In this document: piece by piece, positions 1 to 13,601 of the stretch
Position numbering within the stretch: the first letter of the stretch is position 1
Layout: each line of letters opens with the position of its first letter
Assembly (NCBI RefSeq): GCF_000382145.1
Contig: NZ_KB907625.1
Coordinates: forward strand, 1 to 64,000
Direction of reading: 5' to 3'
DNA from: Psychrobacter lutiphocae DSM 21542
GTDB lineage: Bacteria; Pseudomonadota; Gammaproteobacteria; Pseudomonadales; Moraxellaceae
DNA length: 64,000 bases
The notes under the pieces: generated by a model
What the model was told of the DNA's origin: nothing
The model's database searches: none
What the model saw: only the letters and a program-made list of their open reading frames with translations
Position numbers and translations under genes: made by a program

Positions 1-264
1 GCTGTGGTTGTTATGGATGGTGCTCTATGGCATCAACCAAGTTTAAACCTACATAATGTGACGATGCTTAAATTACCCCCTTATTCACCTGAGTTAAATC
101 CATCTGAACAGGTGTGGTCGTATTTGAAACAACATTGGTTATCCAATAGGTGTTTTGATGGTTATGAGGCTATTGTTGATGCTGCTTGCAAGGCTTGGAA
201 TAGACTTTGTTCCAAGCCCGAGCTCATTCAGTCTATAACTTCTCGTGATTGGATTGGTTTATAG
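1..264 (+). CDS. IS630-family transposase, C-terminal part, 5' end outside the window
   Basis: The frame is open from base 1 and ends at a stop at 262-264, giving about 87 residues of the C-terminus of a DDE transposase. The sequence VVMDGALWH matches the region of the second catalytic Asp, and PPYSPELNPSEQVW matches the signature around the catalytic Glu of the IS630/Tc1 superfamily. The gene converges on the truncated tnsA gene, with stops only 6 bp apart. IS630-family elements insert at TA dinucleotides; the exact IS terminus between about 265 and 290 cannot be fixed without another copy. Activity cannot be judged because the N-terminal half is not in the window. Confidence 0.85.
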   Translation, partial: AVVVMDGALWHQPSLNLHNVTMLKLPPYSPELNPSEQVWSYLKQHWLSNRCFDGYEAIVDAACKAWNRLCSKPELIQSITSRDWIGL

Positions 265-270
265 GTTTAT

Positions 271-870
271 TTATGGAATTGGTATAAGCTCATGAGCATA
301 AAAACTTAAACTGTCATAAGCATCTAAAGAGCTATCTTCTCTAGCCTCTGGATAAAGCCATTTAATGTTATTCTGAATATCTATAGGTATATCTTTTTCA
401 GTAACTAACTGCCACGGAATACCTTTAGAGTTCCAGTATCGTCGTTCTATTTCTAATTTCTCTATGACTCTAGGCTTCATTAGCTCTTCTGAGTACTTAG
501 CTTGCAAAACAAATTGGCTAACCTCTTTATTAGAGCTTACAACATAAAAGTCTGAGGTCATGACATGTATTTGGCCTCTCATAGCAGGATGCTTTACTTG
601 CATGCTTTCTGCAATTTTAAGCGTCTCATCAAATTTAAGAGGAAATTGCTCTCGAATATCGGTAATTTCAGGACTCCACTCAAGAAATAGAAATGTTGCT
701 AACTCTAAATCTGACATCAAATGATGAATGCGTCTTGTCTTATGACCAAAGACTCTGTGTGATCGACCCGAGGAGGATATATCAGAAATTTTTATCCAAG
801 GTTTATAGTCAGCTAACTCTCCGTGACCTCTACCTTCTTTAATCCACTTTTCTTGTTTTTTTGAGAGCAT
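271..870 (-). pseudogene. tnsA: TnsA-like Tn7 transposition endonuclease, C-terminally truncated
   Basis: TnsA cuts the 5' ends of the transposon while TnsB acts on the 3' ends. This 199-residue product has the TnsA endonuclease domain: YKPW near 22-25, SSGRSHRVFGHKT around 33-45, SDLELA at 53-58, DIREQFPL at 71-78. Putative catalytic residues E56, D107 and K125 have the same spacing as E63, D114 and K132 of Tn7 TnsA (51 and 18 residues). Tn7 TnsA has 273 residues; here the reading ends after YAHELIPIP, directly beside the convergent IS630-type gene. The C-terminal domain known in Tn7 for TnsC interaction is therefore missing. I infer that the IS insertion truncated the gene. Expression also looks restricted, because a hairpin abuts the start codon. 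The TnsA family assignment is strong; loss of function is inferred. Confidence 0.85.
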
Positions 871-911
871 AAAAAAACCCCTGCTAAAGTTACATCAACT
901 TTAGCAAGGGG
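871..911 (-). terminator. Terminator-like hairpin overlapping the tnsA ribosome-binding region
   Basis: On the minus strand CCCC, one unpaired T and TGCTAAAGTT pair with AACTTTAGCA and GGGG, separated by the loop GATGT. Seven T residues follow, and then directly the tnsA ATG. This is a near-perfect 14-bp stem with a U-run, in the same direction as glmS and tnsA, so read-through from glmS should stop here. The only Shine-Dalgarno-like bases, AGGGG, lie in the 3' arm of the stem, so the same fold would also hide the ribosome-binding site. Both functions are inferred from the sequence. Confidence 0.75.
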
Positions 912-927
912 TCGTATCGGAGTCAAC

Positions 928-987
928 AGTATGATACTTTATTACTCAGTATGAATCTTTATTACTCAGTATGATACTTTATTACTC
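928..987 (-). repeat. Three contiguous 20-bp repeats, probable TnsB-binding sites
   Basis: Read on the minus strand from the transposon end, three direct repeats of GAGTAATAAAGTATCATACT lie head to tail at 987-968, 967-948 and 947-928. Copies 1 and 3 are identical; copy 2 differs at the central TA/AT. In Tn7 the right end holds several closely packed 22-bp TnsB sites, so position, spacing and number all fit. Binding by a TnsB homologue is inferred. Confidence 0.8.
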
Positions 988-1019
988 GCTGACATTAAGA
1001 GTTATAGAGAGAAATAAAG
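988..1019 (-). other. Tn7-like terminus and attTn7 insertion site
   Basis: The candidate transposon terminus is TGTCAGC on the minus strand, starting at 994. Exactly 25 bp (1019-995) separate it from the last base of the glmS stop codon, matching the classical Tn7 target point. The 5 bp at 999-995 (CTTAA on the minus strand) are the predicted copy of the target-site duplication. The second copy would lie at the far transposon end, outside the window. Confidence 0.75.
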
Positions 1020-9183: not shown

Positions 9184-11067
9184 ATGAAAAACAGATACTT
9201 AAATAGTATGGTGCCTACTTTTATTATTAGGCACATACACAAAATAAAATACCTAGGGCTGGCTGTACTGCTCATCGCTCTGGTGTATTCTTTTGTCATG
9301 CATGCCGCTTGGCTAGTCTTATGCTATGGCTTGGCGCTGTTTTTATTTGGGATGCAGTGTATCGAAGAAGGTCTAAACAATGCTGCTGGCGGTACATTAG
9401 AACAGTTACTGACCAAAAGCACTGAAACACCAACTAAAGGGTTTTTATTCGGTATCGGCTCAACATTTATATTGCAGTCCACCACGTTAGTATCACTATT
9501 GACCATTGCTTTTTTAAGCACAGGTATGATCACGCTAGCAGGTGGCTTGTCTGTCATTTTAGGCACCAACTTAGGGGCAACAAGTGGCGCTTGGTTATTG
9601 GCTTTAGCTGGTCAAAGTATCAGCTTAAGTCCTGCTGCTATTCCGATGCTAGTCGTGGGGGTGTTAATTGGGTTTCTTGATAAACGTTTAAAGTTTTTTG
9701 GTCAGGTACTTATCGGTATCTCACTAATCTTCTTAGGCATTGATGCGATCAAAGAAGGGTTTGATGCATTTGGCAATAATATTGAGCTTCAAAGTATCGA
9801 TGCCAGTAGCATGACCCAAGTCCTGCTATTTACACTTCTTGGGTTTTTGTTAACCTGTGTCTTACAATCATCGCATGCCACCTTGATTTTGATACTGGCA
9901 GCTTTGTCTTCTGGGCAAGTGACGCTTATCCAAGGCTTTGCCATTGCATTAGGTTCAAACTTGGGCAGTAGCTTTACGACCGCCTTGGTAGGAATGCTAA
10001 GTGGTGATAGAAATGGACAACGCCTGGCGCTGGCACATCTAATTTATAATTGGGTGACCGCCCTACTTGCTTTGATACTCTGGGTACCACTGACCTTTGC
10101 GGTACATTGGATAGCAAAAATAGCAGGTATGAGTTCGCCACTGTTACAACTAGCGCTATTTCATACCTTATTTAACGTTTTAGGTGTCAGTGTATTTTGG
10201 GGTATTCAAGATAAATTTGTCCAAAAGCTCAAACTATTTTTACCTGACAGAAAACCTTCAAAAAGACTGCCCGATGATTCAGAGGCCGTCCTGCCCATCT
10301 ACCTGCATGGCAATATGCTAAAAGCCTCTGATACCGCTATCGAGGCAGTAAACCAAGAAATGGAGCACCTGACAACACTAGGTCTAGAAGTGATTTGTCA
10401 TGCTATCTATGTGCCCAATGATGCGCTGTACTACCCTTCAGAAAACCTACCTCCCCCTAAACCGCCATTAAACCTCAATGTCCGTAGTCTGTACGAGTGG
10501 CAGATTAAGCCTCTATACAGTGAAATATTAAGCTTTACTAGCAATATTGATATTCACAATGACCGCAAACTACAAAAAAGACTGACAGAAGCGCATATGG
10601 TGGCATTTCAAGTTGTAGAGATGGTAAAGCAAAGTAAACAACTCCAAAACAATATGCAACACTTTTTAAGTGATTCAAGCACCGAAATTTATCAAGAATA
10701 TATGGCACTGCGCAACAATGTCTATGAAATGCTACTGTACTTTAATAGAGTTCGACAGCTACCCGCAGATAGCTTAGAAAGTGAACAAGCCATTAAAAAC
10801 TTTACCCATTATATTGAAACGTCTGCTCCCCCACATTTAAATGTCATTGACAGATTAAGAGAGCATACCATTGATAAGATGCAAGCCTCGTCGCTGATGA
10901 ATGATTTAAACTATGCCCATCGTATAGGTACTGCGCTTTCAGAGATATTAATCAGCCTATACAACATTAGTACAAAACCGAAGAAAAAGAAAAAGAAAAA
11001 AAGGAAGTCAAAAAAAGAAGCCCGTACAACAGCTGATGCCCATATCATTACAACCAAAGAAGTTTAG
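9184..11067 (+). CDS. Na+/phosphate cotransporter-family membrane protein
   Basis: The N-terminal half carries the two inverted Na/Pi cotransporter repeats, each with its Gln-Ser motif: LQSTTLVSLL in the first and LQSSHATLIL in the second. Each is followed by a GTNLGAT or GSNLGSSFTT segment. About eight hydrophobic segments end near residue 350. The rest is a soluble, helical, PhoU-like region that probably faces the cytoplasm. The C-terminus is a poly-lysine run (KPKKKKKKKRKSKKE) before a short polar end. The ATG at 9184 gives 627 residues; an in-frame TTG (9163) and ATG (9208) are alternatives, and none has a clear Shine-Dalgarno. The likely substrate is phosphate, but homologues of this type have not all been tested. 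Confidence 0.88.
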   Translation: MKNRYLNSMVPTFIIRHIHKIKYLGLAVLLIALVYSFVMHAAWLVLCYGLALFLFGMQCIEEGLNNAAGGTLEQLLTKSTETPTKGFLFGIGSTFILQSTTLVSLLTIAFLSTGMITLAGGLSVILGTNLGATSGAWLLALAGQSISLSPAAIPMLVVGVLIGFLDKRLKFFGQVLIGISLIFLGIDAIKEGFDAFGNNIELQSIDASSMTQVLLFTLLGFLLTCVLQSSHATLILILAALSSGQVTLIQGFAIALGSNLGSSFTTALVGMLSGDRNGQRLALAHLIYNWVTALLALILWVPLTFAVHWIAKIAGMSSPLLQLALFHTLFNVLGVSVFWGIQDKFVQKLKLFLPDRKPSKRLPDDSEAVLPIYLHGNMLKASDTAIEAVNQEMEHLTTLGLEVICHAIYVPNDALYYPSENLPPPKPPLNLNVRSLYEWQIKPLYSEILSFTSNIDIHNDRKLQKRLTEAHMVAFQVVEMVKQSKQLQNNMQHFLSDSSTEIYQEYMALRNNVYEMLLYFNRVRQLPADSLESEQAIKNFTHYIETSAPPHLNVIDRLREHTIDKMQASSLMNDLNYAHRIGTALSEILISLYNISTKPKKKKKKKRKSKKEARTTADAHIITTKEV

Positions 11068-11222
11068 CAAATGCTACTTGTCTGCTGTTGTGTATAATGA
11101 GAATATAGAGGTATTAGGCGTATGCTAATTTGGCCTTAATATCCACCCTTAACAATGACTTATAAACAAGGGTTTATATTTAACCCATTATTAATTAATA
11201 TTTTATTTAAATAGAGAGTCTC

Positions 11223-12245
11223 ATGTCTGTTTACACTCAACTTTTAGATAGCCAATTTACTGATTTTTGTCAAGCTTTTGGCGTACCCTTTGCCAAAGCC
11301 ATTCCTATTACCCAAGGCATCAAAAACTCTAACTGGTTTATCCAAACAACCGACGATGCGCAAGGTGAGTACTCTTATGTATTTACCTTATTTGAAGAGC
11401 GCCCACCAGAAGACATTGCAAAAATGGCAACCATCTTAAATCGACTCAAAGGCTCTTTGCCTGTGGCTGCACCACTTGCTCGAACAGATGCGCAATCAAC
11501 AGACCCGAACTCCAAAACTGACGAACTCTATTTAATTAAATATCAAAATAAAGCCATCACCCTAGTCCCCTGTCTACCTGGTGTTCATCCCAAACAGACA
11601 ACGACTGATATGTGCCACAATATGGGGCAAGCTTTAGCTACACTGCATAATACATTACAAAGTCTGACACCAGCAGAAGAATATGGCGTCCCTTTATACC
11701 CTTGGAATCAGGTGCGAGATCGTGAAATTCAGTTTATGCCTGCTGATGAGGCCAAGCTGATGCAAGATATCTGGCAACGCTATGAGGCCTTACCACTTGC
11801 TAGCCTACCAAAAGGCTTATGCCACCTTGACATGTTTGCAGACAATACCTTATGGGATCTAAGTGATGACAAACAAACTCTGACAGGTTTGCTCGATTTT
11901 ACAGAGGTCAGTGTTGAGCACTATGTAATGGATATTGCCATTACTATTAATGACTTTTGTACCACATGGGGCGATGCAGAAGACGGGGAAACCGTCAACT
12001 TTAACACCCAAAAAATGCAAGCATTTATCACAGGTTACCAAAGTATCCGACCCCTAACACCCGCTGAACAACAAGCACTCCCTGTCATGTTGGCTATGGC
12101 AGCCGTTACTTTTTGGCTACTACGGTTAAATGTAATTTACTATAATCGTGAGCAAGGACGTATGGGAGATAATATCATGGTCAAAAATCCAGACTTAATG
12201 AAACGCCTTGCAGCTTATCATTGGAGTCAAGTGACTGATATCTAG
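11223..12245 (+). CDS. thrB: Homoserine kinase, aminoglycoside-phosphotransferase-like (type II)
   Basis: This enzyme phosphorylates homoserine on the way to threonine. It is the type with a protein-kinase/APH fold found in pseudomonads and relatives, not the GHMP-type ThrB of E. coli. In 340 residues the N-terminal ITQGIKNSNWFI binds nucleotide phosphates. CHLDMFADNTLW near 200-211 holds the catalytic Asp and the metal-binding Asn, and LLDFTEVSVEHYVMDIA near 222 holds the second metal ligand. AGAG precedes the ATG. It seems to be transcribed alone; no other thr gene is nearby. Confidence 0.93.
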   Translation: MSVYTQLLDSQFTDFCQAFGVPFAKAIPITQGIKNSNWFIQTTDDAQGEYSYVFTLFEERPPEDIAKMATILNRLKGSLPVAAPLARTDAQSTDPNSKTDELYLIKYQNKAITLVPCLPGVHPKQTTTDMCHNMGQALATLHNTLQSLTPAEEYGVPLYPWNQVRDREIQFMPADEAKLMQDIWQRYEALPLASLPKGLCHLDMFADNTLWDLSDDKQTLTGLLDFTEVSVEHYVMDIAITINDFCTTWGDAEDGETVNFNTQKMQAFITGYQSIRPLTPAEQQALPVMLAMAAVTFWLLRLNVIYYNREQGRMGDNIMVKNPDLMKRLAAYHWSQVTDI

Positions 12246-12398
12246 GTCTAGCTACCTGTTTTAAATAGATGTTTTTAAATAGATGGCTTTAAGTTGACGG
12301 TATCCAACCACCTATTAAAAGTATATTGTTAGAGCCTGTTTCACGTGAAACAGTACTTCCCAAAGTATAATTCCTAACAAGGTAGCAAGGAGCAAATT

Positions 12399-12653
12399 AT
12401 GAGTAAACCCATCGATAAGCAACTCGATAACTGGCAAAAGTTAGCAAGTTATAGTACTAACCTACAAGCTGAAATGTTTGCAAACTTGTTGAGAAACAAT
12501 GGAATTAATGTTTCACTACAAACCCTGAGTGCCATACCTGGTATGAACTCAGGGAGTATATTGTGGGTGCAACAAGATGATTTACAAAAAGCACAATCAA
12601 TTTTAGATAGCATTGACAGCCACACACTTGATGATAGCAACAACGAAGGATAA
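12399..12653 (+). CDS. DUF2007-type small protein
   Basis: This 84-residue protein has the DUF2007 pattern: WQKLASYSTNLQAEMFANLLRNNGI, then a conserved patch ending in LWVQQDDLQKAQSIL. The fold is related to the signal-transducer-like ferredoxin folds, but no function is established. The AAGGAG 7 bp before the ATG is one of the best ribosome-binding sites in the window. It ends 15 bp before the glutamine amidotransferase gene, so the two are probably cotranscribed. Confidence 0.85.
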   Translation: MSKPIDKQLDNWQKLASYSTNLQAEMFANLLRNNGINVSLQTLSAIPGMNSGSILWVQQDDLQKAQSILDSIDSHTLDDSNNEG

Positions 12654-12668
12654 GGCGGTAGATAACAG

Positions 12669-13601
12669 ATGTGTCAATTATTAGGGATGAATGCCAATAC
12701 TCCAACCGATATTGGCTTTAGCTTTACTGGATTCCATAATCGTGGTGGTAAAACTGACCATCACAATGATGGCTTTGGCATTGCCTTTTTTGAACCCAAT
12801 GCCTGTGACCTCAATAATCCAACCCTTAGTGAAGCACAAAGCATTGCTCGTAATTCTAGTCGTGGACTGAGGGTGTTTCACGATGACAAACCCAGCTCAC
12901 AATCACCAGTGGCAGAGCTGGTAAAAAACTACCCTATCAAGGCACTCAACGTGGTAGCTCATATTCGCAAAGCCACCCAAGGTAGCAACTGCCTAGCCAA
13001 CACCCATCCCTTTGTGCGTGAAGTTTGGGGCGAACAATGGGTGTTTGCGCATAATGGTCAAATGAATCAAAGCTTTATCCAACGCTGCCAGCGCCTGCAA
13101 AAAAATGGCAATAGTGAGCACTGCCGCCCGGTCGGTACCACCGACTCTGAAGCGGCCTTTTGTTATTTAATTAATCGCCTCAAATCAACCTACAAAGACC
13201 GCCCCTCTGACCAAGAATTGTTTCGCTTCTTAACCACTCAGTGTCGTTATTTGGCAGCCAATGGGTTATTCAACTGTTTGCTATCTAATGGTGATTGGCA
13301 ATTGGCTTATGCCAACTCACTGCTGTTTTATTTAACCCGCAAAGCGCCTTTTGGTGAAGCAAAGCTGGCTGATGACGACTTATCAATTAATTTCAAAGAT
13401 GTCACCACAGAAAATGACAAAGTAACTATCTTAGTCACTGTGCCTTTGACCGAAAATGAAGACTGGCAACAGCTAGCGATTAATGAGTGCTTGGTATTCC
13501 AAGATGGCGATATTATCTTCCAAGACACACCAAGTCTGCGCAAATACTTAACCATTGAAGAAGGGATTGCTATTGCTCGAGAGGTGGGTGCCAGTATATA
13601 G
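12669..13601 (+). CDS. Class II glutamine amidotransferase (YafJ-like)
   Basis: After removal of Met1, Cys2 (MCQLLGMN) would be the N-terminal nucleophile of an Ntn-type glutamine amidotransferase. HIRKATQG, THPFVRE, WVFAHNGQM and GTTDSEAAF are the conserved glutamine-binding and oxyanion segments. The 310 residues contain only the amidotransferase domain, with no synthase domain. This is the YafJ-like group, whose acceptor is unknown. It follows the DUF2007 gene and is followed within 6 bp by the ceramidase-like gene, so the three may form one transcript. Confidence 0.93.
   Translation: MCQLLGMNANTPTDIGFSFTGFHNRGGKTDHHNDGFGIAFFEPNACDLNNPTLSEAQSIARNSSRGLRVFHDDKPSSQSPVAELVKNYPIKALNVVAHIRKATQGSNCLANTHPFVREVWGEQWVFAHNGQMNQSFIQRCQRLQKNGNSEHCRPVGTTDSEAAFCYLINRLKSTYKDRPSDQELFRFLTTQCRYLAANGLFNCLLSNGDWQLAYANSLLFYLTRKAPFGEAKLADDDLSINFKDVTTENDKVTILVTVPLTENEDWQQLAINECLVFQDGDIIFQDTPSLRKYLTIEEGIAIAREVGASI

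Follow-up and report, generated by a model that had tools for sequence, protein, structure and literature searches.

The 64,000-nucleotide stretch of Psychrobacter lutiphocae DNA analyzed here (the window) carried, with very little doubt, the right end of a Tn7-family transposon of the TnsABCDE type, decayed, akin to Tn6171 and inserted at attTn7 beside glmS. The element itself is an ordinary, broken member of a known family, and the less expected part is the leader between its terminal sites and tnsA, together with the putative fossils of that leader. The window corresponds to bases 1-64000 of contig C4, which starts at base 1, in a genome of 3.17 Mb and 78 contigs. The features considered were the following:

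1-284, plus strand: 3' part of an IS630-type insertion that interrupts tnsA (transposase ORF 1-264, DDE_3)
287-870, minus strand: first ~194 codons of tnsA, endonuclease domain kept and C-terminal part cut off (PF08722, E 1.7e-20)
871-910, minus strand: hairpin (878-910) and then T7 directly before the tnsA ATG, a predicted terminator of glmS read-through and candidate lock on tnsA
898-926, minus strand: predicted tnsA promoter, with -35 TTGACT (921-926), a 17-nt spacer and extended -10 TGC-TAAAGT (898-903)
927-987, plus strand: three overlapping, predicted TnsB-type binding sites of the right end (repeat comparison, genome and genus searches)
988-994, plus strand: transposon terminus GCTGACA (TGTCAGC when read inward), the same as at the left end on contig C54
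995-999, no strand: 5-bp target duplication TTAAG, also flanking the left end on C54
1020-2867, minus strand: glmS (615 aa), the attachment gene, transcribed toward the element, stop codon at 1020-1022
Contig C54 (L006), 9245-12542, beside the left end: Pycsar cassette PycC-E2-PycTIR

Three direct 21-nt copies (927-947, 947-967 and 967-987; identity 100, 90 and 100%) were found at spacings of 20 and 20, the outermost beginning 7 bp inside the terminus, as the initial annotation had described for three head-to-tail 20-bp repeats. The TGT terminus that it had placed 25 bp after the glmS stop was also recovered, since the terminal ACA ended at 994 and was followed by TTAAG (995-999) and by 20 bases before the stop codon. 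The range then given, 928-1019, took in the sites and left out tnsA (to 287), the leader (871-926) and the IS630-type piece (1-284). The end had moreover been singled out as a compact one with three sites; the three sites are there and are nothing special, as 3 or 4 sites occurred at 18 of 101 glmS loci of the genus. The repeat pattern is more than chance: AGTATGATACTTTATTACTC was present at ≤2 mismatches in 42 of 105 genomes of the genus, and the same pattern read backwards gave 2 matches in total. Within the genome, the 18-nt core at ≤2 mismatches was restricted to C4 (928-987), C54 and C50 (8 places); allowing 3 mismatches added 3 scattered matches, and the backwards control gave 5 matches at ≤3 mismatches.

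The tnsA gene was contained in a minus-strand ORF at 271-870, with its start inside the transposon end. Residues 8-195 of its product matched residues 15-202 of the 273 residues of Tn7 TnsA (1f1z), and the ~194 codons left here compare with 271 aa in the full-length TnsA of a congeneric element (L045:11745-12560). The boundary of the IS630-type insertion in tnsA and the TA duplication at 285-286 were set by eye. The same IS630-type end begins contigs C54 and C62, and its 5' end, recognized by eye, lies at the close of C60. This separate contig carried tnsC (PF11426), tnsD (TniQ and PF15978) and tnsE (PF18623), all as open frames, in addition to the truncated tnsA of C4; its TnsD was of the attTn7 type and matched the solved Tn7 TnsD 8glu (E 2e-68). 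Searches for TnsC and TniQ each returned one place in the genome.

The transposase gene tnsB was the incomplete part of the set. A profile search of the genome for Mu-transpos_C (PF09299) gave no match, but the controls also matched nowhere, so tnsB was traced with the protein of a relative instead. Only residues 586-701 were found in the assembly, behind an rve-type transposase at the start of C60, which was called IS3-like from its rve/HTH domains and by eye. Of the tns genes expected to accompany the end, tnsC and tnsD were recovered, and tnsB only as this remnant. The missing part could be unassembled and not deleted; as no complete tnsB was found, the element was classified as a decayed member of its family. 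In its assembled form it cannot move by itself, both tnsA and tnsB having been broken by insertion sequences. No match was obtained when tnsA and the IS piece were scanned with PADLOC. The short terminal IS fragments of C50 and C60 matched no Pfam family, and the names IS4-like and IS630 5' end therefore rest on reading by eye.

The matching end, which had been predicted together with a TTAAG duplication, was found on C54 in the same genome: its three sites lie apart, at 12651, 12706 and 12773, and TTAAG adjoins its terminus. The element thus combined TGT...ACA ends, multiple TnsB sites that were close-packed at the right and separated at the left, and insertion 25 bp past glmS with a 5-bp duplication. 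With this second end, the tns genes, the equal TTAAG and the 25-bp spacing, the original proposal of a Tn7-like element at attTn7 was upheld. By analogy with Tn7, the insertion 25 bp beyond the stop codon would be the work of TnsABC, guided there by TnsD bound at the end of glmS. As IS copies interrupt the assembly, the parts of the element are spread over at least three contigs. Joining C4, C60 and C54 in one element rests on the single places of tnsC and TniQ, the IS630 junctions and TTAAG, the last being weak proof of one insertion because every insertion at the att site copies the same 5 bp. In eight congeneric elements in which both ends were compared, the 5-bp flanks were equal in six (G084, G051, G048, G006, G091 and G070) and unequal in two (G099 and G086). 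The order of tnsA, C, D and E was shared by four genomes (G084, G051, G006 and G014), their TnsC being 77-82% identical to the one described here, and a full-length tnsB lay between tnsA and tnsC in both relatives that were read (G084 and G006).

Beyond the 5 bp of the C54 left end, another right end was observed (site at 12813), which by eye ran into an IS4-like element. Contig C50 opened with the apparent remainder of such an IS; behind it came two further sites, at 442 (4 mismatches) and 462 (3 mismatches), then the degraded remains of a leader and, finally, chromosomal genes. Three of these C50 genes (TSUP, FMN-reductase-like and MetE-like) also flank attTn7 on the far side in four relatives (L047, L054, L058 and L059); the MFS and orf92 genes, which lie nearer the sites, were not found at the attTn7 flank of these four. 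At the time of insertion, the site apparently already contained the right-end relic of an older relative. The head-to-tail junction on C54, R|TTAAG|L, had a counterpart in G077, R|AACAT|L.

Other arrangements were recorded at these loci. Where the left end and the older right end abut (L006 12771-12835), a perfect 30-bp inverted repeat surrounded CTTAA, its two arms deviating identically from the site consensus, which hairpin-templated repair might explain. In the chromosomal flank (L005 9080-16248), two adjacent long genes, autotransporter-like by eye, contained proline-rich repeats, and one of them a masked or gap stretch. A remnant at attTn7 in G011 (L061, ~2492-2593) showed two oppositely oriented sites ~80 bp apart, one with 4 mismatches and the other with 1, and a remnant of ~1 kb in G086 (L054 9272-10357) retained both kinds of end with unequal 5-bp flanks.

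Two other explanations of the ends were weighed. The repeats might be a regulatory region of glmS unrelated to transposition, and one or two copies were indeed seen at 28 of the 101 glmS loci. The initial annotation had itself named repeats downstream of glmS without a transposon as evidence against its reading. These loci look like degraded right ends and not like a host feature, because one of them (G039) retained an intact tnsA start and three others (G031, G070 and G099) tnsA relics. Moreover, 55 of the 101 loci had no site at all, and a regulatory role leaves the matching left end, its identical 5-bp flank and the tns genes unaccounted for; the second end and the tns genes refute it, and we give it practically no weight. 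Alternatively, two stacked Tn7-like elements may have been fused by deletion, one contributing the C4 right end and tnsABCDE and the other the Pycsar block and the C54 left end, with the tnsA of the second surviving as a relic at L006:8946-9120. A broken second tnsA does lie there, between NurA and PycC and in the same orientation, and the junctions on C54 and in G077 show that stacking happens. Yet no end site was detected between NurA and PycC at ≤5 mismatches of 21, and a single right end and a single left end remain in the unit, so that we regard a fusion as rather doubtful, while crediting it with a substantial minority of the probability.

The nearest described Moraxellaceae element among those compared was Tn6171 of Acinetobacter baumannii, which, in the portion of the source available, shares the TnsABCDE type, the position 25 bp from glmS, the 5-bp target duplication and TGT...ACA ends in which the TnsB sites overlap at the tns side and are separated, three in number, at the opposite side (PMC8190619). 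It differs in its four tns-side sites and siderophore cargo, compared with three sites, defense-type cargo and broken tnsA and tnsB here (PMC8190619). The assumption that few such elements had been described in Moraxellaceae was not supported, since the parts consulted of two reports already name Tn6171 and Tn6552 (PMC8190619) and Tn6553 (PMC9605922). A literature search combining Tn7-like elements, Psychrobacter and glmS gave no match. Tn7 is likewise targeted to attTn7 by TnsD and encodes TnsABCDE, and its cargo is different from that of the present element.

The cargo was read from C54, where, toward the left end, genes were found for a DNA methyltransferase, a HerA-type ATPase, a NurA-domain protein, PycC, an E2-like protein and PycTIR. 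The suggestion that defense genes might be carried was borne out, defense-type genes being among them; the companion suggestion of a guide-RNA system found no support on C54 or C60. The two contigs, searched for CRISPR arrays, contained no direct repeats (≥22 nt, within 200 nt), and no cas family was among the families listed for 10 C54 ORFs. A CRISPR-associated transposon, expected to carry cas genes and an array, was not supported by either scan.

PycC was recognized by PADLOC (E 2.5e-175), as was PycTIR (E 5.9e-98; PF10137), a TIR protein with a cyclic-nucleotide-binding domain, and the gene between them encodes an E2-like and cysteine-rich protein (PF20298 and PF20272). By profile, a PycC cyclase and a putative cyclic-nucleotide-gated effector, the two components of Pycsar, are both present. 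In the part of the Pycsar literature available (PMC11224242), a PycC-type cyclase and a CNBD-TIR effector likewise share one cassette, the difference being the E2-like cysteine-rich gene that lies here in between and overlaps the end of PycC. The E2-containing loci compared were L006, L082, L084, L088 and L089. PycC-E2-PycTIR lay near left-type sites in G093 (three sites, the nearest 1.4 kb away), on the Moraxella osloensis plasmid pMOXF1 (three sites, the nearest at 87 bp) and in G059 (87 bp from a single site). A second, divergent Pycsar set on pMOXF1 adjoined two weak sites (4 and 5 mismatches of 21), and PycTIR fragments adjoined left ends in G099 and G070. The Acinetobacter plasmid pMsp65 also has PycC-E2-PycTIR, with no end site in the 16.7 kb read. 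Of the 105 genomes searched in the genus, four contained PycC, with end sites nearby on the same contig in three (G000, G059 and G093), the fourth being G019. Plasmid pMOXF1 (CP040258.1) carries two tnsA places behind right-end-like sites, its two Pycsar-E2 sets, a type I restriction system and macrolide-resistance genes. The main text of PMC8649781 mentions neither Pycsar nor HerA nor glmS.

The remaining three cargo genes were assigned to PF01555 (methyltransferase), PF01935 (HerA-type ATPase) and PF09376 (NurA, weakly, E 3.5e-6). Two separate cassettes of this kind, with different gene orders, were present in the genome, on C54 (L006, 4151-8653) and on C62 (L080, 957-5598). HerA and NurA were neighbors at all ten loci opened, including these two, a count that leaves out two further plasmid matches (H16 and H18). 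By Pfam or tblastn, a DNA methyltransferase was the next gene at nine of the ten (C54, C62, L066, L067, L069, L070, L077, L078 and L079), and none adjoined the Nostoc locus. The triad recurred in Cycloclasticus, Methylococcales, Deferribacter, where the HerA gene is split by an IS, and Halorarius. A scan with NurA returned two relatives among the genome contigs and matches in 4 of 369 genomes of the class, this one included. In Thermus, the accessible part of one report describes a DNA-donation operon of ICEth1 formed by a type IIG enzyme, a NurA-like nuclease, TdtA and an N4/N6 methylase (PMC5365140). The tdtA operon of Thermus thermophilus resembles the triad in placing a HerA-superfamily ATPase, a NurA-like nuclease and an N4/N6 methylase on a mobile element, TdtA being compared by description and not by sequence; ICEth1 differs in being tRNA-integrated, in also encoding the type IIG enzyme and in driving DNA donation, whereas the triad here is Tn7 cargo (PMC5365140). 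Because of this likeness, both defense and DNA donation were considered, and by analogy the triad possibly serves one or the other.

The leader lies between the sites and tnsA, and the predicted -10 of the tnsA promoter falls inside the 5' arm of its hairpin. Between 700 and 1100, the terminator scan gave 1 hit against 0.2 in shuffles and the promoter scan 2 sites against 1.2. Across 15 leaders the 14-bp stem was 95% paired, with 5 of 14 pairs changed on both sides, a level reached by 8 of 500 shuffles; the covariation score was 0.287 against ≤0.112 for slid pairings and was reached by no shuffle of 500, in a set of related sequences with the structure taken from one row. The -35 match averaged 4.12 of 6 at a spacer of 17 in 24 leaders, against ≤1.96 at the other spacers from 13 to 21; 25 leaders had entered this test, that of V. 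halioticoli being dropped for want of a -10 pick and the poor picks of canonical Tn7 and C. freundii being counted. The read-through RNA folded at -24 kcal/mol (z -4.8), and RNA starting from base 893, near the predicted start, at -3.8 kcal/mol (z -0.15). At all 18 loci with ≥3 sites, the terminator stem started 108-128 nt after the glmS stop.

Similar leaders were observed outside the genus. In canonical Tn7 on a Proteus mirabilis plasmid (L168), the letters differ and the layout is alike, comprising a hairpin, a T-rich run and the ATG; by eye, a promoter-like arrangement was read as TTGTAA, 17 nt and TATGCT, the last (the -10) lying within the 5' arm of this leader's own hairpin, where the automatic -10 pick had failed. 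The identity of this leader as Tn7R rests on a primer sequence in the part of PMC4328036 consulted. In ten tnsA leaders outside the genus, a hairpin ending near the start codon was seen by eye in seven (canonical Tn7, A. baumannii, A. johnsonii, two on pMOXF1, and K. pneumoniae and C. freundii with one shared leader). A clear T-run was lacking in A. johnsonii and one pMOXF1 copy, the V. halioticoli leader had a hairpin without a T-run, and no hairpin was seen by eye in two Klebsiella leaders (L169 and L171).

From these patterns a mechanism can be proposed. Transcription of glmS would read into the right end, and the run-on RNA would fold into the 878-910 hairpin, terminate at the T-run and hide the presumed ribosome site of tnsA. 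With a predicted start in the loop or close by, RNA from the nested tnsA promoter would be without the 5' arm and would remain open. The right end would thus replace the displaced terminator of glmS. We consider it about an even chance that read-through is terminated at the hairpin with the tnsA ribosome site hidden while RNA from the nested promoter escapes. Work by Gay in 1986 on Tn7 and the glmS terminator is said to bear on this and may already report glmS RNA ending inside Tn7; given that work, no priority is claimed for a replacement glmS terminator. The leader was not described in the portions available of PMC2918618, PMC12823268 and PMC4328036, and nothing on it appeared in those of PMC10293859 or PMC8649781.

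If right ends act as glmS terminators, this may be why their leaders persist after the elements die, and a census of the genus bears on the point. The glmS 3' end was obtained in 101 of 105 genomes, and sites were sought within 140 nt at a threshold of 5 mismatches of 21, at which some single sites may be chance. At least three sites were present at 18 loci, two at 11, one at 17 and none at 55; in loci with fewer than three, the terminator stem, where detected, was mostly closer to the glmS stop. Two leader profiles were then applied at E up to 1e-3, profile A from 17 sequences of the type found here and profile B from 2 of a second type. Among the 55 site-less loci, 13 matched A and 29 matched B, 42 different loci in all, which are not independent events since species share ancestry. 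The one- and two-site loci (27, leaving out the training sequence G039) gave 11 matches to A and 9 to B, and the reversed and shuffled controls 0 of 82 each. Within the 64-kb window, only the attTn7 leader passed the threshold, with profile A. The leader core TAGCAGGGGTTTTTTATG had 12 exact matches in the 105 genomes, all 12 at glmS and three of them in site-less loci (G047, G059 and G094). Some one-mismatch core matches lay just outside left ends (G084, G048 and G099), where an older terminator would come to lie once a new insertion had displaced it, and many others elsewhere in the genomes, away from glmS.

On these sequence comparisons, the simplest reading would be that right ends supply a terminator to glmS and are kept for it. 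More broadly, the leader of glmS-targeting Tn7 right ends may be of dual use, combining a replacement terminator, a tnsA promoter in the 5' arm and a tnsA ribosome site in the 3' arm; it would outlive the transposon because it serves glmS, and most glmS terminators of the genus would be fossils of two Tn7-like lineages. We put this forward tentatively, at somewhat below even probability. The leader-like terminators of site-less genomes might instead be ancestral host terminators captured by the transposon, and no fossils at all. In many species a hairpin of such shape lies downstream of glmS, and terminators are prone to convergence; the shared ancestry of the 42 loci and the one-mismatch cores at many places away from glmS also fit a capture. 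However, several site-less matches to profile B span the region from the -35 to past the start codon, tnsA coding relics follow the hairpin in site-less G036 and G041 (E about 1e-12) and weakly in G038 (E 6e-4), and the exact cores occurred only at glmS, so that capture seems unlikely, though still worth serious consideration.

In the dual-use reading, the comparative data would offer a testable account of how Tn7-type elements live beside glmS without harm, covering both the shielding of the transposase from glmS read-through and the persistence of relict ends. The cargo adds a recurrent methyltransferase-HerA-NurA cassette tied to mobile cargo and a three-gene, E2-containing Pycsar cassette tied to the left ends of Moraxellaceae Tn7 elements.
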